This document shows positions 4,544-63,938 of a stretch of 64,000 bases of DNA, piece after piece. Numbering within the stretch: the stretch's first letter is position 1; every line of letters begins with the position of its first letter. The stretch covers positions 67,280,871-67,344,870 of the forward strand of contig NC_083579.1 in NCBI RefSeq assembly GCF_027579695.1, in the 5' to 3' direction. Under the pieces are notes generated by a model, which saw only the letters and a list, made by a program, of their open reading frames with translations, was not told the origin of the DNA and searched no databases. This DNA comes from Neoarius graeffei (taxonomy: Eukaryota; Chordata; Actinopteri; Siluriformes; Ariidae). The position numbers and the translations under genes were made by a program.

Positions 4544-7500
4544 ATGGGAGCCAATGTTTCCAACTACCCACACTCATGCTCTCCACGCTTTGGTGGAACC
4601 GCACAAGCTCAGCAGACCTTCATTGGTGGGTATTGTAAATAATCATTCAAGTTAGGAAACTGTGTGGAACTGCATGTATAATCCACTTTTGTTGAAGTAC
4701 TCATCAGCGAAATGTCAGATTGCACCAAATTATATATTCCTCTTGACAGTCCAGAGACGTTTTCTAAACAGTTAAGACTTTCATAGAACCTCACTCACTG
4801 ATGAAACTGTAAATTGAGTGTTTCAGGGCAGCTTTGATTACCAGTGAATAAACACTGGATGTAGAAAAAAGAAATGAAATATATTTGGTTCAGTGCATTG
4901 CCTGGTTATGGAGAATGCAAGAAGGATAGCAAAGCTCACAGATTTTTCTTGATGATTAACTTTGGCATATGAAATTTGGTGACATTTCTGTAATGATTTA
5001 AATTCCCCACTGTGGAAAGTGCAGTTCAATTACCAGTGAAATGGAGCTGGAGACTGTGATTAACAGAGTGTCACCAAAACCATTAAGAGAAGAAACTGCT
5101 AATGTGCTGTGGAAGCCTGCTCAACTGCTTGCTTTTTTTGGGAGTAGCTCATGATCAGGTCAGACAAGTTCAAGGAAAATGTGTTCACGCAGCCGAAATG
5201 GCTGGTAATTCCGTGTTTTAAAGACACAGGAGGCTGTAAATGAATGGCAGAGGACAAGCATTGTATGTTAGAGGTCATTGTTTATTTCAGTAAATTGAAT
5301 TTAAAGGCTTGATTTTTATTGAGACTACGGTCACAGTACAATACAAACCACTGCAATCCTCACTGATGGACACATTTATTTCCTTTTATTTTTCTGTGTC
5401 TGTCCCAATTCATTTGTATGAAACAAAATACTAAGACAAATATTGGGGGGGGTGGTCGGCTTGGAGAGCACGCTAATCATGCCATTCCTTCCAGAAGGCA
5501 AGAATCATCTACTGTAAGGTTTAAGTTTCATGGGAATCTATGACTTTTTATAAGTTGCAGCTGTTTAAGCCAACCAAGCTCAGTTCCAAAGGATTCATTT
5601 TCTTCTTGCAACCATAGTATTTTTGAATGAAAAATTTACTTTAGATAATTATTGCAGTTCAGACTGTTGCACATGTTTTAGCATCAATTCAAGTTGGAGA
5701 CTCGTTCACAAAATAGAATGTGTACTGTTCAACTTCCTTCCTACCAAATTTGATTTCTAGGTTGTAAAGTCTCTGTAAAAAGTTAGGGGTCGCTGCTTGG
5801 ACCCCTAATATTGGCCCCTTTCTCATAATGCTGCGTACAAAAAAATTTTTTTTTTTTAAACAATCATGCACACAGGCATCATTCTTTTCGCTCAGAAAAG
5901 AATGCAGGTGTGGTATCTAAATTAATTAGTGCATTGGATGGGACACATGATAAAATGTAAACTATGCATAGTAAACTTGCATGTATGACGTTTTAAGGCT
6001 AATGAGGGGTACAGAATTATTACAGCATTGTTTGTCTGATCCTGTCAGGAACGTCATTGTACTCGCAGCAGAGTTACACGTGGGAGCCAAAGATCTACAG
6101 CCTGGAGCATGGTGGCCATGACCGTGTTCCTGAAAGGAAGAAGAAGAGCTCTGGCCTGGCCACGCTGAAGCGCCGCTTCATCCGCCGCCGCAGGGCGAGC
6201 CGCTCAGCCGACCATGCACGGCACATGCGTGAATTGCTCTCAGGTTGGCATGTTTGTGATGCCAATGCCCTAGTGGAGGAGTACGAGGGCACAGCTGCCC
6301 TCAAAGAGCTGAATCTGGCCACGAGTCTGGCTCGGCCTGAAGCTGCCACCCTGCGATCCTGCATGGCCACCCTCTTCCAGCACAAACACTGTGCTGATGT
6401 GGACCTGCTCTTTCAGGATGCCTGCTTCCCTGCCCACCGTGCCATCCTGGCTGCCCGCTGCCCTTTCTTCAAGAGCTTGCTGTCATCGACAGGATCAGCC
6501 AATTCAAGCTACAATGGACCAGAGGTGCTACTTGATATGGGCACAGCAGGAATGGACGTCATGATGTTCTCTGCCCTGCTACATTTCTTGTACACGGGTG
6601 AACTGGGAGGTACCAACAGGGAGGCGGAAACACGGCTGAGGAACGTGGATGTCCTCAGGCAACTGAGTGAGGAGTTTGGCATGCCTAACCCTCTGGAGGA
6701 AGATATGAGGGTGCTGTTTCACTCCATGTACTACTATGACTCTGTACTCAGCTTCTGCTCTGAGCCTGAGAGTGTCGACGCTTATGATGCTGTAGGAGGG
6801 ATTAGCGGTGGAGGGATTGCTGGAGTTGGCATTGTAAAAAGTGATCAGTCAGCATCCCCAGAGGAGGACCTGAAAGCCCATAAGGCCGTGCTCTCGGCAC
6901 GCTCTCCTTTCTTCCGGAACCTTCTGCAGCGCCGTGTCCGAACCGGTGAAGAGCTAACGGAGAGAACACTACAAACACCTACACTCATTGTCCTGGACGA
7001 GTCAATCATCCCACGGAAGTACGCCAGGGTCATCTTGCACTGCATGTACACTGATGTTGTAGACCTAGCACTAGTGATGCGTGGCAGTCCTTCAATGGGC
7101 AGTCTGAGTGAAACGCAGTCCCTGGGGACGAGTAACACTGCTGGCAAGGGTGCTGTCCCTATACGCACAGAGGAAGCCATGGAGCTCTACCACATTGCCT
7201 TGTTTCTGGAGTTCAGTATGCTGGCACAAGGTAAGTGCTGTTTCACATGCACTAGGGCTGTAACAGCAATGACGTGCTATCTGTGTCTGTATCTGCTTGG
7301 TGCACGAGCAAACCTTAAGTGGGTGTGGCCTGTTTTTAATTAGATTAAATATGAACCCCACTATTATGCCTTAAGAAATGGTGGAAATGGTCTGTGAATT
7401 CTATAGCTCTGACTGTTTCATACCCACATGAAAGAAAAAAAGAACTCTTTTTGTTTTCCCTGAGATCCCAGTGCAAAAACACACATCTAGTCTCAACCAT

Positions 7501-20100: not shown

Positions 20101-23100
20101 TCATCACAGGGCTGATACATAGACACAGACAACCATTCACACTCACATTCACACCTACGCTCAATTTAGAGTCACCAGTTAACCTAACCTGTATGTCTTT
20201 GGACTGTGGGGGAAACCGGAGCACCCGGAGGAAACCCACGCTGACACAGGGAGAACATGCAAACTCCGCACAGAAAGGCCCTCGCCGGCCACGGGGCTCG
20301 AACCCGGACCTTCTTGCTGTGAGGCGACAGTGTTAACCACTACACCACCATGCTGCTCCAAGTGAGCATTTATTTAAAAAAAAAAAAAATCCATGAAGAC
20401 TAACCAGTTGCTTAATGTTTCTGTTGATAGAAATTTTAATAACGGCAGTGTTTTTAATCACATGCTCTAATTTGCAGTTTGTGGTATAGTGTTTTCCAAA
20501 CATCTGAAAGCATTTAAATGTGTCTGTTTTTACATTCGTTTCTAATTATGTGCATTTCATTACAAATCATGATACAATACCAGTCAAAAGTTTGGACACA
20601 GCTTCTAATTCAATGTTTTTACTTTATTTTTATTAAGACACTTCATGTCTTAAAGTAATGATGGATGCCGTTTCTCTTTACTTCGTTGAACAGTTCTTGG
20701 CGTAAGATGGATTACTGCAGTTGTGGAATAGGGTTATTTACTGCATTTTAAAAAAAAAATATTTACTATTTACTGTTTTTGATCTCAAACTCATTTCAGA
20801 AGGCAAGAAATTGTACTAATTAACTTTTGATGAGGCACTTGTTAATTGAAAAGCTTTCCAGGTAACTACCTCATGAAGCTGGCTAAGATAACGCCAATAG
20901 TGTGCAAAGTGTCCTCAAGGTAAACGGTGGAGACTTTTTGAAGAATCTAAAATATCAAACATATTTTGTTTAACACTTTTTGGTTTACCACATAATTCCA
21001 TACATGTTCCATGTGTTTATTTCACAGTTTTGATGTTTTCAGTATTGTTCTATGATGTAGAAAATGGTCAAAATACAGAAAAACTTATTGAGTAGGGGTG
21101 TACAAACTTTTGACTGGAGCTGTATGTACATGAATTTCAGCGTTTGTTACTCTCTTCTCCCCACCCACCCCCCTTTTTGGTTTAATGACAGAATGCTGCT
21201 GTGGACTTCACAAGTTTGTGTAAAAGCTGATGATCCATGTTGGAGCAAATCCATGTTGTCTGAGGCCAAGTTTACATTAGACCGTATCTGTCTCGTTTTC
21301 TTCGCGGATGCACTGTCTGTTTACATTAAAACGCCAGGAAACGGGAATCCGCCAGGGTCCACGTATTCAATCCAGATCGTGTCTGGTCCGGTGCTGTGTA
21401 AATATTGAGGATACGCTGTGCTGAGCGTCGTCATTGGACAACGTCACTGTGACATCCACCTTCCTGATTCGCTGGCGTTGGTCATGTGACGCGACTGCTG
21501 AAAAACGGCGCGGACTTCCGCCTTGTATCACCTTTCATTAAAGAGTATAAAAGTATGAAAATACTGCAAATACTGATGCAAATACTGCCCACTGTGTAAT
21601 GATGATTGTCTTTAGGCTTGCCATCCTTCCACTTGCAAGTGGTAAGTGACGCGCATACCCGATATGCACTGAGAGCACACACACAGCGGCTCAGTCCCGA
21701 ATTACTGCTCGTGCACTTCACTCGCACGCTCTGTGAGGTGCGCACTCCGGCCCTGCGCAGCCTCCAGAGGGCACTCGCTGTTCAGGGCGGAGTGATTTGG
21801 AGCGCAGGATGCCTGCGGAGCCGAGCGTATCCGTGTATTGGCGTTGCTGTGTGCACGCGAATCGTGTATTGGCGTTGCTGTGTGCACACTAATCGTTTTA
21901 AAAACGTTAATCTGATGATCCGCTGATACGGTCTAATGTAAACCCCACCTGAATATGTACGTCAATGGAAGGGATTAGACTCGAGGAAAATCTGACCTTT
22001 TGTACAAAGTTGACATGATCAGTGTCCTTGATTGATTGCCTACATTTAAATAGTAACTTAGAAATAAATATTCTACAACTATTTCCTGCATCCCCTTTCA
22101 TTTTAAATATTTTCAGAATTTTAAGACTTTCTTTTTATTTCCAGTTTTAAATTAGTTTTTTTTTTTGGGGGGGGGGGAGAAACACCTTCCCCTCCCCACA
22201 CCCAGAATCTCCAGTGTTGTGGTATTTCCCACATTACAATGGGTGCAGTATAATGGTGAGCTGATGACCCATTTTCCTATTTTAATTACTGTGCATCTCC
22301 AAGAGACAATCTGTCTGTACTACATGGATACTAATGCAAAAAAAAAAAAAACCCTCTCATTTTGTAGTGGACTCATTTCAACCACTTTGAGTTAGGGCTT
22401 AAATACAGATTTGAAACCCCTTTTAAATTTCTCATGTAAACGGGCTAGTAAATTACAAGGTCTATTCATGCAAAGATGTCTGCTGTTTTCAAGTATTCAA
22501 GGTAGGTCACAGGGCCAGACATTCAGTACATGGAGGAGCCACTGTGCGAGTTTAAGTGGTGTCTCTGCTTCAGTCTGTCATTAAAGTCTCAAATCTTTCA
22601 GGGCACCTTTTGTGAAATGAGTGTGGTGGTAATCCTGTGCTGTGCTGTGCTTCGCGGTCTCCACCGCCCTCTCTTTCACAGGCGAGCGAGCAGGACATTT
22701 TGAAGTATGTGATTAAGTGGGGCGAGCACCAGCTCATTAGGAGGATGGCTGACCGAGGTGAGATTGCTGTTCCCATTGACCCTCATGCACTGCATATTTT
22801 CACCTCTCACACATGCCCTCTTAGAGTCATAAAGCACACCAATGACCGATGTCGTTATGGTCATAGGGATGTGTTCCGATTAAGGCATGTACTATACGGT
22901 ACACAGACGTCGGATAGCGTTTGTGTAATGGCATTTTCTGTGTGTGCGTCAGAGCCCAATCTACTGAGCGGTACAGCTCACAGTGTGAATAAGCGTGGAG
23001 TGAAAAGAAGAGATCTGGATATCGAAGAACTGAAAGAGATTTTGTCTCCTCTGCTGCCTTACATCCGCATGGAGCACATTCTCCCAGCCAATAGTGACAT

Positions 23101-26100
23101 CCTCGCTGACGCAGTGAGTGTTCGTTCGTCATGTAATGAGTTTAGATCTCATGTGTGAAAGTGTAAACTGATGGAGCACAATCAGGAACCCATGTGACCT
23201 TTTTAATCTCCCTCCTGCTGCTCGTTATTGACTGCTGAATGAAGGTTTTTGTGGAGACCCTGTAGGCAGCAGAGCTTGGTTTGCTGAGATGGCTGTGCTT
23301 TTTTTTTTTTTTTAAACAGATGAAGCGTGGCTTGATCAGCACTCCTCCATCAGACATGTTGCCCACAGCAGAGGGAGGCAAAGTAAACGCCTGGCTTAGG
23401 CAGAAAAACACAGGCATTTACGTGCGTCCGCGTCTCTTCTCTCCCTACGTGGAGGAGGCAAAGGTAGGCCTGTTTTCTAACTTAACTTGTCTCACATGTC
23501 TTGCTCAATATCAAAATCATGATTATAAATTACTTAATTCAACAATTAAGTTTATTGTACTTTGATGTTGATTTGGAACTTGTATAATGGTCACAGTAAG
23601 AAAAGTGGCTTTTCACTCATTGTACGTTATTCTAGCCACATTCACTGGATATGAGCAATCATGTGCTCCGATTGGCTACTCTACTACTAGGATATCAGCT
23701 CCTATACCGTGAGTAGAGGAAAAACAAAATGGCAGAGCGTGTTGCTGAATCAACTGAGGAAGAAATGAAAACTCTACTTGAAAACGAAACCTCAAAAAAT
23801 ACAAAAAAGCAACAAAATATGGAATAAAAGTATTTGATGGTAAGAACGTATCTTCCCCCCTAATAATAATTATTATTATCATTATTATTATAGCATTTTT
23901 CACAAATTGCTACTGTCATTTCGCCAGTTTGTTTACGTTCTAAGTGGAAATTTTGTCAGACGTTTTGTATAAAGTTTTTATTTATCAAATTTGCAAAAAA
24001 TAAAAATGCTCTTTCTCAAAATCCAGTGAATGTGGACAGAATAAAAGTTATTCCACTCGGTCTCGTCATATATGGCTTATACCAGATAGGTCATTTATGA
24101 CTCGATTTCGTGGAATAACTGGTAAAGTAGTATTTCTTCTTTATAAATCCCTGAATCAGACGCACCCCCCCTTCTTTCTTTTTTTTTTTTTAAAAACTTT
24201 ATTTATTTATTTTTTAAAAAGGATCCAGGCCTGTTTGCACCAAAAGTTAGGAACATTTAGGCTACGTTCACACTGCAGGCTGAAGTGACTCAAATCCGAT
24301 CTTTTCGCCCATATGTGACCTGTATCCGATCTTTTATTGACAATATGAAAGACACCGATCCGATTTTTTTCAAATCCGACCCAGGCCGTTTGGATATGTG
24401 GTCCTAATTCCGATTCCTATCCGCTCTTTTCATATGCGACTTCAGTCTGAACCGCCAGGTCGCATTCATCCGACTTGCACGTCATCAACAAGCCACAAAC
24501 GTCACTATTCTGCGCTGAAGTAGGCGGCGGGTCTCTCAAAAAAAGTTACAACAACATGGCGCATAATCACGGGCGCAGATAGAGGGTGGGACTCGTCCCA
24601 CCCAGATTTAAATTCACCTCGTTCGGTCCCCCCCACTTATAGGGAGGAAAAAACGTCTATGCTGTCTTTCTTTGCATAAGGCAAACCTCACGGAAAAATC
24701 AAAAGACTAATTACCATTCGGTTTATTGAGGTGCACAGCAGTGTATACATAGTTGCAACAACTCACATAAAACAAAACAAAGACTGATATTCGGTTGGTT
24801 GAGCTGCGCAGACTGCACAGGTTGCGAGCTCAAGCTTGGTTGCTATGGTTACTAACAACAAGTTTGACAGGCATATCGGGGTTGGGCTTGGTTTGCTGGC
24901 AGCTTTGTCCCCCCCAGTTCAAAAAACGTATCTGCGCCCCTGCGCATGACATCAATGCGAGGGACGCTTCGGGCTGTGAAGGTTCTGAATCTTCTCAGTG
25001 GAAGGACGCAGAGGTTAGGGAGCTGATTTCCATTTGGGGGGATGCAGCTATTCAAGCTAGATTGGATGGGTCATACCGCAACCGGGCGGTTTTACTTCCG
25101 TAAACACTGGCCATGCTCACTGCGTGTGACGTCGTCGTATCCTGCAATGCGCATGCGGAACACTTTTAGGTCGCTTTTCGTTCATACTGAGGATCACATA
25201 CAAGTCGCATATATTTGTTAATGTGAACGACCTCACAAAAAAATCGGATTTCACAAAAAAATCGGAATTGAGCATTAAGCCTTGCAGTGTGAACGTAGCG
25301 TTAGTTGTATGACGACTAGGAACCCAGGAACCAATCTCTGGTCCACTTAATGTTGATGGTTCAGGGTTTGCTTCAAGTGAACTCTGCGGTGAACTGTACC
25401 ATGTGTGAAAGCCTCCACTAACCAGTTCTTATAAGCAAGAAGGTTTAATCTGAATGGCTGATCAGCATTCAGCCAAAGTAAAGAAAGCTGAATTGAGTAC
25501 AAATATTAATTAAACGAACATTTAATAAAGGTATATTGTCATTTATTTGATGAGGGTTTTGCCCACAGCAGAATTGACTGAACAATTTGCAGTTAGGATT
25601 CTAAAAGCCCAGAATCAACCCTGATTATAGGTCTGATCGTTTAGTTCAAGGGTGAAAACACCTAACTAGTGCTAAATTTAAACAAATAAATAAGGATATC
25701 GTAGCATAAACCAGTCAATAAAACACTGACCGATTTTAGCAATGCTCACCAATATTAGTCTTGTTTTTAAATTTTCAGGCAGTCAAAAATTGTGATCATG
25801 ATTAAAAGTACTATTTGTGTCTGTGTCTTTAGTCAGTCCTTGAGGAGATGATGGTGGAACAGACGGATCTGGTACGACTGAGAATGGTGCGCATGTCTAA
25901 TGTGCCCGACACACTGTACATGGTCAATAACGCTGTGCCCCAGTGCTGTCACATCATAAACCACCAGCAAATCCCTGGCAACCAAACCACTGCCCCATCT
26001 GTCGTGGCCAATGAGATACCAGGTGAGTGACAGTCCCACGTCATGCTCCTAAGTAAAGCATTTCAGAGTAGTGTAGCGGTTTAGAGGATGTGACTTTGAA

Positions 26101-41200: not shown

Positions 41201-44200
41201 CCATGTCAGTACCTAAGGCTATTTCAAGGTGAGAGCATTTCTAAAAAGATACTATAATTTCTTCATAAATAAATTTTAAAAAGTTACATAACTAAAAATG
41301 AGATGCTTAATATACATACAACTTAAGTCTAAAACTTTCTGTAGTGGCACCTTGTTAAAAACCTCATCCAAAGTACTTTGAGAATAAAATCACTCCTTTG
41401 TGGCATCTAGACCTGGACACGACAGTAAAATATGCTTGATTGTCAGAGATATCCTACAGAAATGGCATGATAGTGGTTCACCCTTTTTTTTTTTTTTTAA
41501 TTAAAGATGAACCTTGAACGACCAATACGACACCTCATATACACCATTGGATTATGTCTGGTTTGAAATGAGAATAGGAGAGTCTTTTTGATCATAGGGT
41601 TGATTTCATACAATTTGTTTCCAGGGCACTCAGTCGGTGTAGACAATGCGGTAACTTCATCTTTTGTATTGATACGTTTCTCACCTTTGCTTCCTTTTGA
41701 CAGTCTTTACTTGTGGAGGGTCCATCATGGCCATTAGTGCATGAAGGCAACATTGAATCCTTCACTTCTTTGTTTTCTGCCACAGTATCATTATCATCTT
41801 TACAAAGACTCACTTTGGTTACTGGGGGACCTTTAAGAAATAAAAAGACATACACATTACCTCATCATACCTTTTAAAGAACTGTTGTGAAGTACAACCC
41901 CAATTCCAAAAAAGTTGGGACAAAGTACAAATTGTAAATAAAAACGGAATGCAATAATTTACAAATCTCAAAAACTGATACTGTATTCACAGTAGAACAT
42001 AGACAGCACATCAAAATGTCGAAAGTGAGACATTTTGAAATTTCATGACAGCAACACATCTCAAAAAAGTTGGGACAGGGGCAATAAGAGGCTGGAAAAG
42101 TTAAAGGTACAAAAAAGGAACAGCTGGAGGACCAAATTGCAACTCAATAGGTCAATTGGCAATAGGTCATTAACATGACTGGGTATAAAAAGAGCATCTT
42201 GGAGTGGTGGCAGCTCTCAGAAGTAAAGATGAGAAGAGCATCACCAATCCCCCTAATTCTGTGCCCACAAATAGTGGAGCAATATCAGAAAGGAGTTCGA
42301 CAGTGTAAAATTGCAAAGAGTTTGAACATATCATCATCTACAGTGCATAATATCATCAAAAGATTCAGAGAATCTGGAAGAATCTCTGTGCGTAAGGGTC
42401 AAGGCCAGAAAACCATACTGGGCGCCTGTGATCTTCGGGCCCTTAGACGGCACTGCATCACATACAGGCATGCTTCTGTATTGGAAATCACAAAATGGGC
42501 TCAGGAATATTTCCAGAGAACATTATCTGTGAACACAATTCACCGTGCCATCCGCCGTTGCCAGCTAAAACTATAGTTCAAAGAAGAAGCCGTATCTAAA
42601 CATGATCCAGAAGCGCAGACGTCTTCTCTGGGCCAAGGCTCATTTAAAATGGACTGTGGCAAAGTGGAAAACTGTTCTGTGGTCAGACGAATCAAAATTT
42701 GAAGTTCTTTATGGAAATCAGGGACGCCGTGTCATTCGGACTAAAGAGGAGAAGGACGACCCAAGTTGTTATCAGCGCTCAGTTCAGAAGCCTGCATCTC
42801 TGATGGTATGGGGTTGCATTAGTGCGTGTGGCATGGGCAGCTTACACATCTGGAAAGACACCATCAATGCTGAAAGGTATATCCAGGTTCTAGAGCAACA
42901 TATGCTCCCATCCAGACGACGTCTCTTTCAGAGAAGACCTTGTATTTTCCAACATGACAATGCCAAACCACATACTGCATCAATTACAGCATCATGGCTG
43001 CGTAGAAGAAGGGTCCGGGTACTGAACTGGCCAGCCTGCAGTCCAGATCTTTCACCCATAGAAAACATTTGGCACATCATAAAACGGAAGATACGACAAA
43101 AAAGACCTAAGACAGTTGAGCAACTAGAATCCTACATTAGACAAGAATGGGTTAACATGCCTATCCCTAAACTTGAGCAACTTGTCTCCTCAGTCCCCAG
43201 ACGTTTACAGACTGTTGTAAAGAGAAAAGGGGATGTCTCACAGTGGTAAACATGGCCTTGTCCCAACTTTTTTGAGATGTGGTGTTGTCATGAAATTTAA
43301 AATCACCTAATTTTTCTCTTTAAATGATACATTTTCTCAGTTTAAACATTTGATATGTCATCTATGTTCTATTCTGAATAAAATATGGAATTTTGAAACT
43401 TCCACATCATTGCATTCCGTTTTTATTTACAATTTGTACTTTGTCCCAACTTTTTTGGAATCGGGGTTGTAATAATCTGAATGAAAGAGATGTGCGATCA
43501 CATGTAACTCACATGCAAAGTAGGCGGCGTAGGTCCACAGGAAGGGAGCTCTGTTCATACAACCCTCACACACCATCTCCAGCAAGTCCTCAGAGTCCAC
43601 AACTGCACAACCCAGATGCTATAAGAAGACAGGCGGTAAAATCTGAGGCATACTTTTAGAGATGGTAAATTGTTCTGCATGAAGGACTTTGATACAATAA
43701 AGAAAAAAATATCCTCGCTGGACAGCAGCTTACCTTTGAGTGGTACCAGTCTTCACAGAGAATACACTGAATCATTGCTTCACCAACCTTCCACCACAGT
43801 GAGAAATAAGACCAGTGTTTGATAAAGGGAAACAGCACCTGTCTCATTTAGAAGTGCTAAAATTGAATGAATTTTGACTCCAATATTGACTAAAAGCGCA
43901 CCAATATTTCACAAAGCAAGAAATGAGTGGAGTATTTGCACTACATACCTTATCATCCTCATCAGGGTAAGGTCTGTCACAGGAGCAGTAACGACCAAAG
44001 AAATTGTGATTATACACATTCTTGATGTTTTGTCCCTCTTTGTCCTGTAAACAATCAATACGCGGGCAAAACAAATGAGACGAATGCAGGACTCGGGCAT
44101 AATCAACAACTAGTATTATTCAGAGCAAGAGTTTCAAGTGACGCATGGTATAACTTATCAGACAGGTAAGACTGCATAACCATGAAGAAGGACATGTGAC

Positions 44201-47200
44201 ATTTGTGAACAAAGCGCTGGAAACGCATAATATTTATCAATTCCTGGCAAAAGCAATGTTTTTTAAATGAAAGGTGTGTAAACTAGCAAATCGCTTTACA
44301 AATCGACAGAAAAAGGGTCAGTTCTGCATTTCGGGAAGTGTAGTGGGAACAGCGGTTGAGCTTTTTAATGGCTGGTAATGAAATGACTTTAGAAAGGAAG
44401 AAATGTTCGGAACGCATCCAGCATACACGTACAGGGATCAGCTTGCACTTAAACGAGCCAAATTTGCGGTTCCCACAATCACAGCGAAAGTTCCTGTGAA
44501 AAGAAAATCAAATAGACAGAAAGACAAGTCATGGTGTTGTGTACTAAATTAGTAAAATGTTAACAGTGCAAACTGGCAGAAGTCATTTTAAAGCGAGGTG
44601 TACCTTTTCGTGTACAGTTCGTAGATGTGGTGGCCATCGTGGCAGGTGTTAGCACAGGCAAGGCAGACGCCAGCTGGATCCATGCCCTCACCTGTGCAAG
44701 TGCTGCAAGCAAACACAGCCTGTCTTTTCACATATCCCTGTAACATATAACCAAAAATCAAGCTAGAGACATATACAGACTGTGTCCAGTGGTGCTTGAA
44801 AGTTTGTGAACCTTTTAGAAATTTCTATATTTCTGCATAAATATGACCTAAAACATCAGATTTTCACACAAGTCCTAAAAGTAGATAAAGAGAACCCAGT
44901 TAAACAAATGAGACAAAAATATCATACTCGGTCATTTATTTATTGAGGAAAATGATCCAATATTACACATCTGTGAGTGACAAATCTGGGCGGCACGGTG
45001 ATGTAGTGGTTAGTGGTGTCGCCTCACAGCAAGAAGGTCCGGGTTCGAGCCCCGTGGCCAGCGAGGGCCTTTCTGTGCAGAGTTTGCATGTTCTCCCCGT
45101 GTCCGCATGGGTTTCCTCTGGGTGCTCCGGTTTCCCCCACGGTCCAAAGACGTGCAGGTTAGGTTAATTGATGACTCTAAATTGACCGTGGGTGTGAATG
45201 TGAATGGTTGTTTGTGTCTATGTGTCAGCCCTGTGATGACCTGGCGACTTGTCCAGGGTGTACCCCGCCTTTCGCCCGTAGTCAGCTGGGATAGGCTCCA
45301 GCTTGCCTGCGACCCTGTAGAACAGGATAAAGCGGCTACAGATAATGAGATGAGATGACCCCAGGTACTAGGTGTTTGTTTAACTACAGGGCTCGACATT
45401 AATGCTTGTCCGCTTGTCCGGGACAAGTGATCCTTTATGTCGGACAAGTTCATCATCTCAGTTACTTGTCCGATCGGACAAGTGCCAAAATACGCCGATA
45501 TTCGGGTTACATCTCAAATTTATCAGTTTATTCACATGATTTCCGAAGCATCTCACTCGACATACTGTTTTGATGAACCACCGGATGTTTCTCTTCGGAA
45601 AGAGCGATGTGCGCATGCACAATATTCCGCTTGCGAAACCGGCCAATACCGCTTCGTGTATTTGAGCTGAAAAGTAAACGGTCGTTTAGCAGACCCTCCA
45701 GGATTTCACGATGTTGCGATTTGCAACTTCAACGCAAATTCAACCAATCCCCGCGAATTCAGGGCGGTGTTACAATTATATCCAATCACCGCAACTTTCC
45801 CGCAAATTTGACCAATCGTTGGCGTCGACAAACTACCTTTCACCTTACTTCCGTGTATACGTTCAAGAGAAGCAGCATGTGCGAGTCAGTGTTTATATAG
45901 GCTTAAATTCTGTTACTGAAAGTGTGTTGTGTTTACAGTGAAGGACTGTGTGCACTTTACATTATTTTTTACTTAATACAAGAAATTAATGGATGCCAAC
46001 ATTTTTGCCAAAATGGTATTTTATTTTCCATTGTTTAGGCAGCTTCAGCATCATACTGTGAGATTCTGTTCAAATTGTTTTTTTTCTTCTTTGAAGCCTG
46101 AGCCATTTATTTTATTAGTTTATAATTATTGTTTAATTTAGTCTTCAGGAGAGACTGCCTGCACACAGTACTAGTATTAATAGTTTTTTTTTCTTGCATG
46201 AAAGCTGAGGCATTTATATTATATTTTAAGGTAACTTCATGTTGTGCTGTGAGGTTCTATGCACTTTAACTTTTGAACCAACAGGAGCATTTGGATAAGT
46301 AAAGCCTATTTTTCTGCATTTTTGTAGTCCTGGTAATCTTTTATATTGGTAAAGTTGTTTATAGGACCATTTCTCAGTGTCTGTTTATTTTAATCAATAG
46401 TTTTTCAATAATAACTTAATATTTAACATATCACTCAATTGTTCAGTTTTGGGATGAAGTACATTCTGTTATTGTTTCGGTCTTGGGTTATCAAATACCC
46501 AAGACTTCCACAGTATTATATCTTGGTAACTTGGGAGGAAACATTGTGGTTAAGCCAGACAGATATATATTCAAAATCTTGATTGCAGCCAGCAAAAAGG
46601 CCATAACGAAAAAATGGTATAAGCCAGAACCACCAGACAGGGATGACTGGTTGAAACTTGTGAAAGAGATGTACATAATGGAGGACTTGACACATAGGAT
46701 AAGACTGCAAGTTGACACATGCGTAGAAAAATGGATGAAATGGAATGTATACATATCAATGACAGAATGACTGAAATTATACTATATTGAATACTTCAGA
46801 AACATGCCCATCCAGATTGTACCGTATATATTTTTTAATTTTTTAATTTTTTTATTTTTATTTTTTTGTTGGTTTGTTCATTTTGTTTTGATGTGTTTTT
46901 GTAATGGTAACTGATGGCAATTATTGTTTTTTCTTTACCTAAGTGTACCACTAAAAAATATAAAAATAAAGTGTTAAAAAAAAAAAAGATCACTCCAAGA
47001 GCAAGGTGTGTAATAGTCATCGAGGTTACAAAAGACCCCAGGGTAACTTGTAAGCAACTGAAGGCCTCTCTCACATTGGCTAATGTTAAGGTTCATGAGT
47101 CCACCATCAGGAGTACACTGAACAACAATGGTGTGCATGGCAGGGTTGCAAGGAGAAAGCCACTGCTCTCCAAAAAGAACATTGCTGCTCATCTGCAGTT

Positions 47201-48310
47201 TGCAAAAGATCACGTGGACAAGCCAGAAGGTTATTGGAAAAATGTTTTGTGGACGGATGAGACCAAAATAGAACTTTTTGGTTTAAATGAGAAGCGTTAT
47301 GCCTGGAGAAAGGAAAACACTGCATTCCAGCATCAGAACCTTATCCCATCTGTGAAACATGGTGGTGGTAGTATCATAGTTTGGGCCTGTTTTACTGCAT
47401 CTAGGCCAGGACGGCTTGCCATCATTGATGCAACAATGAATTCTGAATTATACCAGCGAATTCTAAAGGAAAATGTCATGACATCTGTCCATGAAGTGAA
47501 TCTCAAGAGAAGGTGGATCATGCAGCAAGACAGCAACCCTAAGCACACAAGTCGTTCTACCAAAGAATGGTTAAAGAGGGATAAAGTTAATGTTCTGGAA
47601 TGGCCAAGTCAAAGTCCTGACCTTAATCCAGTCAAAATGTTGTGGAAGAACCTGAAGCGAGCAGTTCATGTGAGGAAACCCACCAATATCCCAGAGTTGA
47701 AGCTGTTCTGTACGGAGGAACGGGCTAAAATTCCTCCAAGCCGGTGTGCAGGACTGATCAACAGTTACTGCAAACGTTTAGTTGCAGTTATTGCTGCACA
47801 AGGGGGTCACACCAGATACTGAAAGCAAAGGTTCACATACTTTTGCCACTCACAGATGTGTAATATTGGATCATTTTCCTTAATAAATAAATAAATGACC
47901 AAGTATAATATTTTTGTCTCATTTGTTTAACTGGGTTCTCTTTATCTACTTTTAGGACTTGTGTGAAAATCTGATGATGTTTTAGGTCATATTTATGCAG
48001 AAATATAGAAAATTGTATGTAGTGCACTATATGTTCAATAAGGACAGGTTTGGGATTCAGCCACAGAGTGACAATCAAAAAGCAGAAACACTAGGCAGCA
48101 CTTTTATTAAAGTTGTTTGCAATACGAAAAAATAAGAGACCAATTTCGAGACTTAATCACTAAGAGAATTACTGAGATGTTGTGTCTTACCCGAGGATAT
48201 GAACACTTATCCGGATCACTACCAGCCAAAACAGCTAGAGCTTCACACAGCTCCTCATCCTCCAGCTCATCCATGGCCCCACTGTCCTCCTGTGCTTTAT
48301 TTACATCCAT
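38286..48310 (-). CDS. ubr7: Putative E3 ubiquitin-protein ligase UBR7
   Basis: Eleven coding exons in transcript order: 48310-48191, 44737-44604, 44493-44433, 44044-43949, 43787-43734, 43618-43513, 41830-41685, 40903-40703, 39929-39776, 38550-38489, 38378-38286. All introns are GT-AG; the product is 408 residues (human UBR7 is 425). An acidic start ([12 protein letters not shown]) leads into the UBR box with its cysteines ([35 protein letters not shown]), about residues 35-105. A PHD-type finger follows ([36 protein letters not shown]), about residues 123-180. The C-terminal part has [28 protein letters not shown] and ends [12 protein letters not shown]. The family binds N-degrons or histones and is linked to H2B ubiquitination. 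The start at 48310 was chosen because it gives the family N-terminus; an in-frame ATG at 48427 would add a hydrophobic stretch that the family lacks. Confidence 0.96.
38379..39775 (-). other. ubr7 introns 9 and 10 and neighbouring unassigned DNA
   Basis: Outside the exon at 38489-38550 I see only T- and A-runs (38408-38422, 38761-38797, 38947-38962) and no named repeat. Confidence 0.5.
40300..40440. repeat. Interspersed repeat with GGTACC-type motifs, copy 1
   Basis: GGCTTGTCACTGGAGCAGTA, then AGGTACTTATTTATACC, GGGAACATGTATATC and GGTACATATGGTTAGCTTGA match 60789-60905 in order and spacing. Lies in ubr7 intron 8. It looks like a copy of a common dispersed element of unknown class. Confidence 0.6.
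41895..43469 (+). mobile_element. Tc1-like transposon, nearly complete
   Basis: TA at 41893-41894 and 43470-43471 flanks inverted ends CAACCCCAATTCCAAAAAAG and CTTTTTTGGAATCGGGGTTG. The inverted repeats extend about 70 bp (to CGGAATGCAATAATTT). The element is 1575 bp and lies in ubr7 intron 6, opposite in direction to the gene, 43 bp from the donor side of exon 43513-43618. Confidence 0.92.
42175..43249 (+). pseudogene. Tc1-like transposase with one frameshift
   Basis: A first frame (42175-42576) covers the DNA-binding half with [20 protein letters not shown] and [15 protein letters not shown] second (42602-43249) covers the catalytic half: [27 protein letters not shown] and [19 protein letters not shown]. 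The three acidic residues are intact, with 34 residues between the second Asp and the Glu (DD34E). The only lesion I see is a stop plus frame change at about 42574-42590. Start codon probably 42175 or 42229. Confidence 0.85.
44988..45358 (+). mobile_element. V-SINE-type tRNA SINE
   Basis: Full-length plus-strand copy inside the left terminal repeat of the Tc1 element. No target duplication is visible because the right flank is not Tc1 sequence, which points to a later rearrangement or deletion. Confidence 0.92.
45359..46439. other. Unassigned DNA inside the interrupted Tc1, with inverted CTTGTCC motifs
   Basis: At 45405-45484 CTTGTCC and GGACAAG alternate, three of each. The rest is AT-rich with no frame worth naming. 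It may belong to the L1-like element to its right or to another repeat. Confidence 0.4.
46440..46988 (+). mobile_element. 5'-truncated L1-like LINE, ORF2 C-terminus
   Basis: The frame 46483-46770 contains [20 protein letters not shown], then [20 protein letters not shown] and [20 protein letters not shown], the pattern of the C-terminal end of L1/Tx1-type ORF2 proteins. A short AT-rich 3' end and a poly-A run (46977-46988) follow and abut Tc1 coding sequence. A strongly truncated insertion; the left limit is approximate. Confidence 0.65.
46977..47822 (+). pseudogene. Tc1-like transposase lacking its N-terminus
   Basis: A frame of about 280 residues without internal stop starts within the DNA-binding region ([20 protein letters not shown]) and includes the catalytic core [23 protein letters not shown] and [19 protein letters not shown], ending GGHTRY. 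In related elements the last motif has Glu (PIEM); here it is Lys (PVKM), so the third catalytic residue is lost. The first 60 or so residues are replaced by the L1-like poly-A tail. Confidence 0.85.
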
Positions 48311-55503: not shown

Positions 55504-58500
55504 ATGGAAGTGAAGTTATCTATGGATCCTCTTTTCCTTGCATGGAGCTGTTTTAGGAGACGGAAGTTCCAGAAATGTTCGGATCTTTGCACAAAGGTGT
55601 TGGAGGACAATCCGTACGACCAGGTGAGTGTGATTATGGATCTAACATGGCTAACAGAGCTGCTAATGCTAGCTCGCTCAACGACCTACAAGTAACTGCA
55701 GTTAAAATAACAATAAAATGCAGGTAGCTTACAAACAGTAGTGGTCCTAGGTTGTAGCTGTTATTCGTGTCCCTTTTCTGTTACAGCACCTCATTTTGCT
55801 TGTTAGATAGATAGCCAAGTTAATAGTACATGGTTTAATTTACATTGTCTGGTGGTCATTTATGCCAGCTTGTCTGGACAGTATGGAAACAACCCTGGTG
55901 AAAAATCCAGCTTGGTCTGACCAGCTATAGTAGATACCAAAACACAGGCTGATGTGGTCAAGCTGGTAGACCATGGACCACTACATTGATCAATCAGATT
56001 GCCTTACTTTTGTGTTAATTTCTTTAAAACGTGCCTACAGTGTAGCAAAACTTTCATTTTTACCAGCACTTACCAGTTTGGCCAGTGTTTATGCAGCTGG
56101 TTGGTCAGACTGTAGTGGGTGGATGGATGGATGTATTTATTTATTTATTTATAGCAGAGCAGGTACAGTTAGGTCCATAAATATTTGGACAGAGACAACA
56201 TTTTTCTAATTTTGGTTCTGTACATTACCACAATGAATTTTGAACAAAACAATTCAGATGCAGTTGAAGTTCAGACTTTCAGCTTTAATTCAGTGGGTTG
56301 AACAAAATGATTGCGTAAAAATGTGAGGAACTAAAGCATTTTTTAAACACAATCCCTTCATTTCAGGGGCTCAAAAGTAATTGGACAAATTAAATAATTG
56401 TAAATAAAATGTTCATTTCTAATACTTGGTTGAAAACCCTTTGTTGGCAATGACTGCCTGAAGTCTTGAACTCATGGACATCACCAGACGCTGTGTTTCC
56501 TCCTTTTTAATGCTCTGCCAGGCCTTTACTGCAGCGGTTTTCAGTTGCTGTTTGTTTGTGGGCCTTTCTGTCTGAAGTTTAGTCTTTAACAAGTGAAATG
56601 CATGCTCAATTGGGTTGAGATCAGGTGACTGACTTGGCCATTCAAGAATATTCCACTTCTTTGCTTTAATAAACTCCTGGGTTGCTTTGGCTTTATGTTT
56701 TGGGTCATTGTCCATCTGTATTATGAAACGCCGACCAATCAGTTTGGCTGGATTTGAGCACACAGTACGTCTCTGAATACCTCAGAATTCATCCGGCTGC
56801 TTCTGTCCTGTGTCACATCATCAATAAACACTAGTGACCCAGTGCCACTGTCAGCCATGCATGCCCAAGCCATCACACTGCCTCCGCTGTGTTTTACAGA
56901 TGATGTGGTATGCTTTGGATCATGAGCTGTACCACGCCTTCGCCATACTTTTTTCCTTCCATCATTCTGGTAGAGGTTGATCTTGGTTTCATCTGTCCAA
57001 AGAATGTTCCTCCAGAACTGTACTGTTTTTTTTAGATGTTTTTTAGCAAAGTCCAATCTAGCCTTTTTATTCTTGAGGCTTATGAGTGGCTTGCACTGTG
57101 CAGTGAACCCTCTGTATTTACTTTCATGCAGTCTTCTCTTTATGGTAGATTTGGATATTGATACGCCTACCTCCTGGAGAGTGTTGTTCACTTGGTTGGC
57201 TGTTGTGAAGGGGTTTCTCTTCACCATGGAAATTATTCTGCGATCATCCACCACTGTTGTCTTCTGTGGGCATCCAGGTCTTTTTGCATTGATGAGTTCA
57301 CCAGTGCTTTCTTTCTTTCTCAGGATGTACCAAACTGTAGATTGTGCCACTCCTAATATTGTAGCAATTTCTCGGATGGTTTTTTTCTGTTTTCGCAGCT
57401 TAAGGATGGCTTGTTTCACCTGCATGGAGAGCTCCTTTGACCACATGTTTTCTTCACAGCAAAATCTTCCAAATCCAAGCACCATACCTCAGATCAACTC
57501 CAGGCCTTTTATCTGCTTAATTGAGAATGATATAACGAAGGAATTGCCCACACCTGCCCATGAAATAGCCTTTGAGTCAATTGTCCAATTACTTTTGGTC
57601 CCTTTAAAAACAGGGCACATGTTAAGGAGCTGAAACTCCTAAACCCTTCATCCAATTTTAATGTGGATACCCTCAAATGAAAGCTGAAAGTCTGGACTTT
57701 GTCCATGTCCATTATATAACTATAACTTGAATATGTTTCAGTAAACAGGTAAAAAAACTAAATTTGTGTCACTGTCCAAATGTATACGGACCTAACTGTG
57801 TATAGGAGAATTTCGCATGTCCATTTGTTTTGTAAAAAAAAAAAAACACTTTTCCAGCATTATAAGGTATTTGCTTCTAATTAAAGCATCTAACTTTGAT
57901 TTGATGTATCACTCCTCTCCGCCTCACCTTTTTGCCAAGGAACCTCATACGTCACTCCACATTTCTGAGGTAACAGCTCATGTCCCTGATGTCCCTCAGA
58001 TCCCTGATGCCCAATGTTCCTGTCAGTGAGATTTAGTAGAAGTAGGCTCCGAACTAGAACCCTAAGCACACCCACTTCACCCTTTGGTTTACTCCATAGT
58101 GTTACTTAATGTACAGCGCCCTCCACAATTATTGGCACCCCTGGTTAAGATGTGTTCTTAGGCTTCTAATAATTTTTTTTTAAATAATATAGGACAGCAG
58201 TGCAAAAGAGAAAAATCCGACCTTTAATTCAAGTGCATTTATTCAGTGGGGAAAAAAATCCCACATTAAGAAATAATTCTTTTACATGAACTTGTGTGCC
58301 ACAATTATTGGCACCCCGATGTTAATACTTTGTACAACCCCCTTTTGCCAACAAGACAGCGCTTAATATTCTCCTATAACATTTCACAAGATGGGAGAAT
58401 ACAGAGAGAGGGATCTTCGACCATTCCTCTTTGCACAATCTCTCTAAATCGTCCTGGGTCCTCTTCTATGCACTCTCCTCTTCAGCTCACCCCACAGCTT

Positions 58501-61500
58501 TTCAATTGAGTTGAGGTCTGGGGACTGAGATGGCCATGGAGGAGCTTGATTTTGTGTCTGGTGAAACATTTTTGTGTAGATTTGGCCACATGTTTAGGGT
58601 CATTATCTTGCTGAAAGACCCAGTGACAACCCATCTTCAGCTTTCGGGCAGAGGCCACCAGATTTTGATTTAAAATGTCCTGGTATTTCAAAGAGTTCAT
58701 GATGCCATGCACCCTAACAAGGTTCCTGGGGTCTTTGGAAGAGAAACAGGCCCACAGCATCACCGATCCTCCCCCATACTTCACAGTGGGCATGAGGTGC
58801 TTTTCCGCATACTCATCTTTTGTGTTACGCCAGACCCACTTAGAGTGTTCGTTGCCAAAAAGCTCTATCTTGGTCTCATCTGCCCAAAGCACACGGTCCC
58901 AGTTGAAGTCCCAGTGCCGCTTAGCGAACTCTAGACGTTTAAGTTTATGCTTGTAAGTGAGAAAAGGCTTTTTCCGTGCATGCCTCCCAAACAGCTTGTT
59001 GGCATGTAGATAGTGCCTGATGGTTGTTATGGAGACTTTGTGACCCCAAGATGCTACTCTTTGATGCAATTCTGTAACAGTGAGCTTTGGAGAACTTTTT
59101 ACTTCTCTTACCATCCTCCTCACTGCGCGTGGTGGCAAGATGAACTTGCATCCTCGTCCAGGCTTGTTTGCCACTGTTCCAGTTGTTTTAAACTTCTTGA
59201 TGATTCTTCTGACTGTAAATATGGGCCGGTGTAGGCGAGCGGCTATTTTCTTGTAGCTGTTGCCTGACTTATGAAGGTTGACACATGTCTGCCTTACTTG
59301 AATGGTGTGTTCTCTTGTCTTTCCCATGTTGAAGAGTGGATAAGAGAAATAGGCCTCTGTGTCACATCATATTTATACCCCAGGGAAACAGGATGTGATG
59401 AATTACTAATTAAAGGTTTGTAGATACTCTGATCAACTTTATAAACTACAGTAGAAATGACAGAAATGCTTGAATTACATTTATTTTCTAGGAATTATGG
59501 GTGCCAATAATTGGGGAACAGGTGATTTTCTCCTCTCATTATCTGTAGCCGCTTTATCTTGTTCTACAGGGTCGCAGGCAAGCTGGAGCCTATCCCAGCT
59601 GACTACGGGCGAAAGGCGGGGTACACCCTGGACAAGTCGCCAGGTCATCACAGGGCTGACACATAGACACAGACAACCATTCACACTCACATTCACACCT
59701 ACGCTCAATTTAGAGTCACCAGTTAACCTAACCTGCATGTCTTTGGACTGTGGGGGAAACCGGAGCACCCGGAGGAAACCCACGCGGACACGGGGAGAAC
59801 ATGCAAACTCCGCACAGAAAGGCCCTCGCCGGCCATGGGGCTCGAACCCGGACCTTCTTGCTGTGAGGCGACAGCGCTAACCACTACACCACCGTGCCGC
59901 CCACAGGTGATTTTTATGAAAAATAATTATTTCTTAGTCAGGGATTTTTTTTTTTTTTAATTCACTTGAGTTGAAGGTTACATTTTTCTACAATTTTCAG
60001 TGTGGAGATTATGCTTCTGCAATAAAAATTGAATTTATTTCAAGGCTTTTAACACATCTTCACCAGGGGTGCCAATAATTGTGGAGGGTGCTGTATATCT
60101 TCCCTAATCTGATCCTATTCAACACTTCTGTATCCATAGGCTGAATCTCTGTCAGTGGTCCTAAGCTTATTAATTCAGCACAGTTCTGTGATTTTACTGC
60201 TTTAACACATCTACTAAACGTTTCATTGCTTAATGAGTAAAATTAAACAGGGAAATGTGACTGTGTGAAGGAATGCAGTGCACCCTTCCTCATCTCATCT
60301 CATCTCATCTCATTATCTCTAGCCGCTTTATCCTTCTACAGGGTCGCAGGCAAGCTGGAGCCTATCCCAGCTGACTACGGGCGAAAGGCGGGGTACACCC
60401 TGGACAAGTCGCCAGGTCATCACAGGGCTGACACATAGACACAGACAACCATTCACACTCACATTCACACCTACGGTCAATTTAGAGTCACCAGTTAACC
60501 TAACCTGCATGTCTTTGGACTGTGGGGGAAACCGGAGCACCCGGAGGAAACCCACGCGGACACGGGGAGAACATGCAAACTCCACACAGAAAGGCCCTCG
60601 CCGGCCACGGGGCTCGAACCCAGGACCTTCTTGCTGTGAGGCGACAGCGCTAACCACTACACCACCGGTGCACCCTTCCTCTTTTTTGAAATTACATCAG
60701 CATACAGGCTTCGTACAGCACCTTTTCAGTCTCCCAGCTGTATACTCTCAGAAAATAAAGTACATTATTGTACCTTTAGGGGTACAACGGCTTGTCACTG
60801 GGGCAGTACCCTATAAGGTACTTATTTGTACCATTTTATATACTGATTGGGAACATGTATGTACCTTTTTGACCCTAAAAAGGTACATATAGTTACCTTG
60901 AAGTCCAATAATGAGCCCAAAGAGATACATTAGTGTATATTGTACCTTGGAGTATGGAAATGGACTCCTACTGTACCCCTATTTCTCAAACTGTAGGCTT
61001 TATTTTATTAGAAGAACTTTTATACAAAAGAAAGGGAACCATTTTGTTGAAAGACACTTTGCTAAAGTTTGTTTAAATAGTTCTTCTGGTTCCATGAAGG
61101 CAGCCTGGAGCCTGAAGACAAGGGCTCTGACTGAGATGGTGTACATCGATGAAGTGGAGGTTGACCAGGAGGGCATTGCAGAAATAATGTTGGATGAAAG
61201 TGCCATTGCACAAGTGGCACGTGAGTACATCCATATTGCCATCTTTTTTTATTTATTTATAAATGACGTCAACTCCAGCATGCCCCATTTATGAGACTGC
61301 TGCACTGTAAAATGAACCAAACTATTTGTATTTTTGGCAGGTCCTGGAACGTCACTGAGACTCCCTGGGACAAGTCAGGGTGGAGGACCTACTCCGTCTG
61401 TCAGGTTCATAACTACTAATGGATTAATTTTATTGATAGGTTTTGAGCATACCTAACCAAATATTCATTATGAATAAAGGTGTATAATGAATGCAAGTCT

Positions 61501-62728: not shown

Positions 62729-63938
62729 AAAGGAGAACTGAAGGCAATTTTTTTATCAAAATTCTATTTATCTCATCTTATTAAATATAGGAATGCATTT
62801 TTGATCGCTATTTTGTTACTGCTATAGCAAGTTATGAGTGTTTGAAATATGCTCTGTAATATATCAGTCCAGGGCGGCACGGTGGTGTAGTGGTTAGCGC
62901 TGTCGCCTCACAGCAAGAAGGTCCTGGGTTCGAGCCCCGGGGCCGGCGAGGGCCTTTCTGTGTGGAGTTTGCATGTTCTCCCCGTGTCCGCATGGGTTTC
63001 CTCTGGGTGCTCCGTTTTCCCCCACAGTCCAAAGACATGCAGGTTAGGTTAACTGGTGACTCTAAATTGACCGTAGGTGTGAATGTGAGTGTGAATGGTT
63101 GTCTGTGTCTATGTGTCAGCCCTGTGATGACCTGGCGACTTGTCCAGGGTGTACCCCGCCTTTCGCCCGTAGTCAGCTGGTATAGGCTCCAGCTTGCCTG
63201 CGACCCTGTAGAAGGATAAAGCGGCTAGAGATAATGAGATGAGATATATCAGTCCATATGTCAAAGCAATGGCCATAAGCGAGATTCGTTGAGACCTGTG
63301 CGAGACATCGTAGGACAGAAGTAAAACGTACAGCAGAAATCAAAGTGACCAACATCTGCCAACGTTGTCAAAAGACGTGCGCGCCCTCTTTCAAATGCTG
63401 ACGTAAACAAGTTTTGTTTGTTTTGATGGCGATCAGGAAAGTTTGAAAAAAGTAGGCGGTAATCGTCATTTAAACTCGTTTTTGTGCAATATTTCATTTG
63501 GAAAACAGTTTTCAAAATGGCGGCACTGACACCTGGCTGACACTTCATGTTTCGAAGTCTCGCACAAGTCTCGTGAAGATCGCACGGATAAGCGACGCCT
63601 GCCGTGGACCAAACGAACTAAATTCAACATGGCTAAAAACCGAATAGGCCGATAAGTATAATATTTAATTGCAATTAGTTGCCAATACGAGTCATGATAT
63701 AAGGTTACTAAAACCGAAAACGTAATTGAATAACACGTTAATTAAGATATAAAGCAAGTTTAAAAATGACTTCAGTTCTCTTTTAAAATAAGCAAGACAG
63801 CGTATATTTGTTTGCAGTCCATGTATTAAGTCCCCATTGTGGAACATTTCAGGCTTTGGACCTAGCTGCACTCGCTACGGAGCATGCACAGTTCAAGGAC
63901 TGGTGGTGGAAAGTCCAGCTTGGGAAATGTTATTACAG
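55504..63938 (+). CDS. ttc8: Tetratricopeptide repeat protein 8 (BBS8), 5' part
   Basis: Coding exons: 55504-55623, the candidate cassette 57940-57969, 61100-61220, 61341-61404, 61869-62028, 62172-62261, 62382-62426 and 63853-63938; the gene continues beyond the window. All junctions are GT-AG and in phase. The product starts [20 protein letters not shown], then [20 protein letters not shown] (first TPR-like helix pair), [20 protein letters not shown], the Arg/Pro/Thr-rich linker ([20 protein letters not shown] and [20 protein letters not shown]), [33 protein letters not shown] and [13 protein letters not shown], where the main TPR array begins. TTC8 is a core subunit of the BBSome, which moves membrane proteins in and out of cilia. 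About 45 per cent of the protein is within the window. The start could also be Met7, which aligns with the MEPLLLAW of mammals. Confidence 0.95.
55624..56165 (+). other. ttc8 intron 1, left part
   Basis: No recognisable element before the Tc1 copy; short ATTT repeats at about 56134-56152. Confidence 0.55.
56166..57798 (-). mobile_element. Tc1-like transposon with near-intact transposase
   Basis: Ends CAGTTAGGTCCATAAATATT and, inverted, CATTTGG...GACCTAACTG (57775-57798). TA precedes the left end (56164-56165); the right flank reads TG. 1633 bp, in ttc8 intron 1, opposite to the gene. Confidence 0.9.
56419..57485 (-). pseudogene. Tc1-like transposase with a single frameshift
   Basis: The first frame (57485-56739) includes [20 protein letters not shown] and [18 protein letters not shown] (helix-turn-helix), then [20 protein letters not shown] and [20 protein letters not shown]. 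The second (56763-56419) continues with [20 protein letters not shown] and [20 protein letters not shown], ending GFSTKY. The frames overlap by 25 bp around 56739-56763, where a 1- or 2-base indel must lie. The DD34E residues are all present. Confidence 0.88.
57940..57969 (+). CDS. ttc8: ttc8 candidate cassette exon equivalent to exon 2A
   Basis: A pyrimidine-rich tract and CCAAG end at 57939; GAG at 57967-57969 is followed by the donor GTAACA. The 30 nt encode [10 protein letters not shown] and both edges are phase 0, so inclusion or skipping keeps the frame. In mammals TTC8 has a 30-nt exon at this same point, encoding a peptide starting EPDPELPVHQ, used mainly in photoreceptors. Only the first two residues agree, so position, size and phase carry the argument. 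Confidence 0.6.
58360..59327 (-). pseudogene. Tc1-like transposase, frameshifted before the last catalytic residue
   Basis: The frame 59327-58482 runs without interruption from [20 protein letters not shown] through [40 protein letters not shown] and [20 protein letters not shown]. It then leaves the family frame ([11 protein letters not shown] instead of [11 protein letters not shown]), near 58543-58555. In the other frame the sequence continues [20 protein letters not shown]. So one indel separates it from an intact reading frame, with further lesions near 58450. Confidence 0.85.
59530..59902 (-). mobile_element. V-SINE-type SINE
   Basis: Flanked by ACAGGTGATTTT on both sides (59518-59529, 59903-59914), inside the terminal repeat of the Tc1 element. 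Confidence 0.94.
60292..60667 (-). mobile_element. V-SINE-type SINE
   Basis: Flanked by GTGCACCCTTCCTC on both sides (60278-60291, 60668-60681). Full length with four CATCT units in the tail. Confidence 0.94.
60762..60950. repeat. Interspersed repeat with GGTACC-type motifs, copy 2
   Basis: Related in order to 40300-40440: GGCTTGTCACTGGGGCAGTA, AAGGTACTTATTTGTACC, GGGAACATGTATGTACC, AAGTCCAATAATGAGCCC. This copy is the better preserved. Contains many self-complementary GTACC/GGTAC words. Confidence 0.6.
61405..61868 (+). other. ttc8 intron between exons 61341-61404 and 61869-62028
   Basis: Contains an A-run (61703-61720) and, at about 61671-61764, a 75-95 bp segment (GGTGGGTTGTGATTTCCACC, then AAATCATGGTTCTCAT) that recurs at 62617-62690. 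Confidence 0.6.
62617..62690 (+). repeat. Second copy of a short dispersed segment in ttc8 introns
   Basis: TGGTGGGTTGTGATTTCCAC to AAATCATGGTTCTCATGG matches about 61673-61760 apart from a shorter A-run. Confidence 0.7.
62691..62726. repeat. (GT)n microsatellite
   Basis: About 18 GT units directly beside the TTAA-flanked element. Confidence 0.95.
62731..63782. mobile_element. TTAA-flanked TIR element, Kolobok- or piggyBac-type target
   Basis: TTAA at 62727-62730 and 63783-63786 flanks AGGAGAACTGAAG and, inverted, CTTCAGTTCTCTT (12 of 13 match). No transposase is readable in its 1052 bp (about 680 bp without the nested SINE). The AGGAGAA-type start is like fish Kolobok elements, but the superfamily is not proven. 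Confidence 0.65.
62872..63243 (+). mobile_element. V-SINE-type SINE
   Basis: Flanked by ATATATCAGTCCA (62859-62871, 63244-63256), nested in the TTAA-flanked element. Confidence 0.94.

Follow-up and report, generated by a model that had tools for sequence, protein, structure and literature searches.

A candidate fish orthologue of the photoreceptor-type TTC8 exon 2A lies between two Tc1-type elements in Neoarius graeffei

An open segment of 30 nt in the ttc8 (BBS8) gene of the fish Neoarius graeffei is, judged by its sequence, very probably the orthologue of exon 2A of mammalian TTC8. It occupies positions 57940-57969 on the forward strand of the window, a term used here for the whole 64,000-nt stretch of genomic DNA that was analysed, and it sits inside a ttc8 intron, between the exon that ends ..PYDQ and the one that starts AAW... 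Its position in the gene, its length and phase, its splice sites and the likeness of its peptide to an assumed human one together lend good support to the exon 2A identity put forward in the original prediction. We also consider it likely, if with less assurance, that this segment is the fish orthologue of the TTC8/BBS8 photoreceptor exon with the photoreceptor mechanism outlined below included. That the exon is older than the split between fish and mammals, as had been suggested, is already in print and is not new here: Matalkah et al. (2022) trace conservation of the Ttc8 microexon to fish (PMC9509328).

The window covers the 5′ part of ttc8, and two coding exons on the forward strand frame the candidate. 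The coding part of the first coding exon (55504-55623) closes in phase 0 at the donor CAG/GTGAGT, and the following coding exon (61100-61220) is entered in phase 0; the intron between them is 5476 nt long. When both exons are joined with the ten residues of the candidate, the resulting peptide of 90 aa matches two distinct solved chains: TTC8 isoform 2 (6xt9_H) aligns with query residues 6-89 at E 2.7e-29, and BBS8 (6vbu_8) with residues 7-89 at E 9.4e-26. The matches confirm that the segment had been placed correctly between ttc8 exons. The sole gap in both alignments is the ten residues of the candidate exon; both matched sequences are without exon 2A and so supply no mammalian exon letters. 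Searches for a second ttc8 returned 64 pattern matches in prokaryote contigs (genome_contigs) and 18 in viral contigs (viral_contigs), none of which was confirmed in either set. Upstream of ttc8 and on the same strand lie two frames, 6006-7343 and 22616-23158, that resemble exons of BTBD7.

The 5476-nt intron is made up largely of two Tc1-type elements and a dispersed repeat. The first element (56164-57802, minus strand) has transposase-like frames, terminal repeats and TA at its ends, and the second (58112-60095, minus strand) has a transposase-like frame and a dispersed repeat inside it; the ends of both were set by eye and are approximate, and the assignment of these elements to the Tc1 family is putative. 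Between them the candidate exon occupies a host island of about 310 nt, with 137 nt of host sequence upstream, 142 nt downstream and a TA at each of the element ends that face it, in good agreement with the distance of about 140 bp to each element given in the original prediction. Long transposase-like frames, presumably of Tc1/mariner type, occur at 56419-57488, 58482-59366, 42166-43249 and 46911-47822, and two of them run for about 300 codons without a stop. The dispersed repeat, which contains GGGTCGCAGGCAAGCTGGAGCCTATCCCAGCTGACTACGGG and measures a few hundred nt, is found at 60293-60670, 59545-59905, 62875-63245 and other places; it is present in both orientations, with one copy, by eye, within a Tc1 element.

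The candidate itself reads without a stop for ten residues in phase 0-0 and is bounded by the acceptor AG/GAACC and the donor GAG/GTAACA (57970-57975), the latter of moderate strength. Its acceptor AG closes a pyrimidine-rich tract (57913-57939) with 84% C/T over 25 nt, a figure equalled by 0.52% of the 3864 AGs on the forward strand, and is preceded by a zone of 51 nt that is free of AG; tract and zone are both reached by 0.16% of those AGs. A CTAAC at 57890-57894, with its A 47 nt before the exon, is a candidate branch point by consensus match. According to approximate splice matrices, the acceptor scores 7.5 versus 6.75 for that of the next coding exon, and the donor scores 5.85 versus 13.04 and 8.7 for those of the flanking exons. 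An open 30-nt segment with a polypyrimidine tract, an AG acceptor and a GT donor is thus present at 57940-57969 exactly as claimed.

We take the peptide of human exon 2A to be EPDPELPVHQ. Measured against these assumed letters the candidate peptide has a BLOSUM62 score of 16, with three of ten residues identical. The two strands of the window together contain 278 stop-free AG-30-GT stretches, and the next best of them scores 7; permuted versions of the candidate peptide score 16 against the same assumed letters in 1.2% of 100000 cases. Among the matches listed, literature searches for this peptide and for variants affecting its codons gave no confirmation of the human letters; if these are wrong, the peptide comparison falls. 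The original prediction also held that length, phase and the initial EP are shared with the mammalian exon. The EP agreement is one with the assumed human letters, and agreement in phase holds if, as we presume, the acceptor altered by the human variant c.115-2A>G is the acceptor of exon 2A. That variant puts the start of its exon at codon 39 (PMC13205176), which gives phase 0. Agreement in length has firmer ground in published work, in which dog TTC8 isoforms with and without the retinal exon differ by ten residues (PMC4574394) and the human retinal isoform is likewise ten residues longer (PMC7018512).

In the mouse, exon 2A owes its activation to Musashi, which works through clusters of UAG in the intron that follows the exon (PMC4991804). 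In N. graeffei, four UAG that are candidate Musashi sites lie within 24 nt on the forward strand (58034-58057, with starts at 58034, 58037, 58043 and 58055) and a fifth is found at 58097, so that there are five in the 141 nt downstream of the candidate versus one in the 137 nt upstream. Local dinucleotide shuffles give P 0.13-0.14 for the downstream count, and an equal count is found in 4-5% of intron windows of the same size and in about 2% across the whole window. The part of the intron that adjoins the first coding exon (55624-56164) contains 15 UAG in 541 nt, and the tightest set of four UAG in the window, which starts at 55804, spans 20 nt from first to last start versus 21 by the candidate. 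The downstream UAG sites are weak evidence for Musashi control. Given these weak statistics, such control is deduced from orthology rather than from the present sequence, and the statistics being mutually inconsistent, we rejected the view that it is demonstrated.

It is important to stress that splice signals by themselves prove little, and that it is the exact length that counts. By summed splice score the candidate (13.36) ranks second among the 250 stop-free candidate exons of 9-99 nt in the 5476-nt intron, behind 59492-59521 (13.57), which is also 30 nt long. Candidates of any length that are equally good arise in shuffled sequence at a mean of 1.43 per whole intron and in 5.7% of shuffles of the island, and the window itself has 35 of them on the forward and 40 on the reverse strand; since they are not rare, the case for the segment is built on its position in the gene, its phase, its peptide and a length of exactly 30 nt. 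One could therefore argue that 57940-57969 is a pseudo-exon that arose by chance and is never spliced in, the true exon 2A having been lost in N. graeffei, and two further observations point the same way: the 30-nt candidate internal to a Tc1 element shows that the length, too, can arise by chance, and several species are without the Ttc8 microexon (PMC9509328), so its presence cannot be assumed. We nevertheless regard such a pseudo-exon as very unlikely. A 30-nt candidate as good as this one turned up in 4% of cases when the whole intron was shuffled (400 times) and in 0.275% when the 308-nt host island was (4000 times), and when the candidate's own acceptor and donor scores are used as cut-offs for the 278 AG-30-GT stretches, 57940-57969 alone reaches both; its peptide, moreover, is by a wide margin the best match to the assumed human letters. 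Its summed score is reached by two of the 278, namely itself and the Tc1-internal 59492-59521. The latter, a stop-free AG..GT stretch in the second Tc1 element, is a decoy of transposon origin within this intron; we rejected it as a true exon because it is internal to the element and its peptide is outside the six best listed matches.

A more serious alternative, though still an unlikely one, accepts the segment as a real orthologue of exon 2A but has it constitutive or broadly neural in N. graeffei. The acceptor at least equals that of the next coding exon, the UAG evidence is weak, and a single sequence cannot reveal tissue specificity, all of which would fit broad use. Each flanking exon, however, has a stronger donor than the candidate, and the record from other species argues for restricted use: the mouse exon is photoreceptor-specific (PMC4991804), the dog and human exon is described as retina-specific (PMC4574394, PMC7018512), and RT-PCR shows a high inclusion rate of the Ttc8 microexon in zebrafish eye (PMC9509328). 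In the rat, exon 2A is used in the pineal gland too (PMC5042479).

By analogy with mammals and zebrafish, then, we infer that 57940-57969 is used as a photoreceptor exon. Musashi-type splicing activators in photoreceptors, those of the retina and probably of the pineal, would bind the UAG sites of the downstream intron and so raise recognition of the exon, and its short length together with its moderate donor would let it be skipped in other tissues. Srrm3 perhaps also acts on inclusion, as a UGC stands just before the acceptor. More tentatively, and as a suggestion that could well prove wrong, the Tc1 insertions may have left in the island of about 310 nt everything that photoreceptor-specific splicing requires, a natural minimal regulatory unit from which any distal downstream UAG sites would have been displaced by about 2 kb.

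What the exon does for the BBSome is a separate matter. In the structure of the human BBSome core, the insert falls between helices 2 and 3 of BBS8, next to density that was left unmodelled and is attributed by the authors to a long loop (PMC7018512). Mutation of a splice site at the human exon is reported to lead to retinal disease alone (PMC5042479, PMC7565673, PMC4574394), and the papers disagree on how a human splice variant acts, with a frameshift in the transcripts that contain exon 2a reported in one (PMC5042479) and in-frame skipping of exon 2a in the other (PMC7565673). These reports of disease confined to the retina stand against the mouse, in which deletion of the microexon, alone or together with two other microexons of cilium genes, left the function and morphology of the retina without detectable change (PMC9509328). 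With no phenotype detected after that deletion, the ten-residue insert probably has a subtle effect on the BBSome, and "tissue-specific BBSome composition", the phrase of the original prediction, goes beyond the data, which concern ten residues on one subunit. Overall, N. graeffei adds a further fish to those whose genomic DNA directly reveals the photoreceptor exon of a Bardet-Biedl gene, and, as transposons have trimmed the surroundings of the exon, this fish can serve in a modest way to test what the exon requires and whether selection acts on it.

The closest known counterpart is exon 2A of mammalian TTC8/BBS8, which the candidate resembles in gene, intron, length of 30 nt, phase 0 and the presence of downstream UAG sites, as well as, against the assumed human letters, in its EP start and the three identical residues. 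It is unlike the mammalian exon in that the rest of its peptide has diverged and its host flanks are cut by two Tc1 elements. The mouse minigene holds 15 sites downstream, compared with the five UAG available here before the Tc1 element begins, and the island of about 310 nt is close in size to the mouse exon plus its two control segments of 100 nt, which lie next to exon 2A (PMC4991804). The ttc8 microexon of zebrafish presumably corresponds to this exon, a likeness drawn from published text (PMC9509328) rather than from letters. Beyond this gene, the candidate may be compared with the RetMICs, the Srrm3-dependent microexons of the retina: at 30 nt it exceeds the 3-27 nt of their definition, but like them it is a short exon that keeps the reading frame and belongs to a cilium gene (PMC10987577), and a UGC lies directly before its acceptor (TTTTTGCCAAG).
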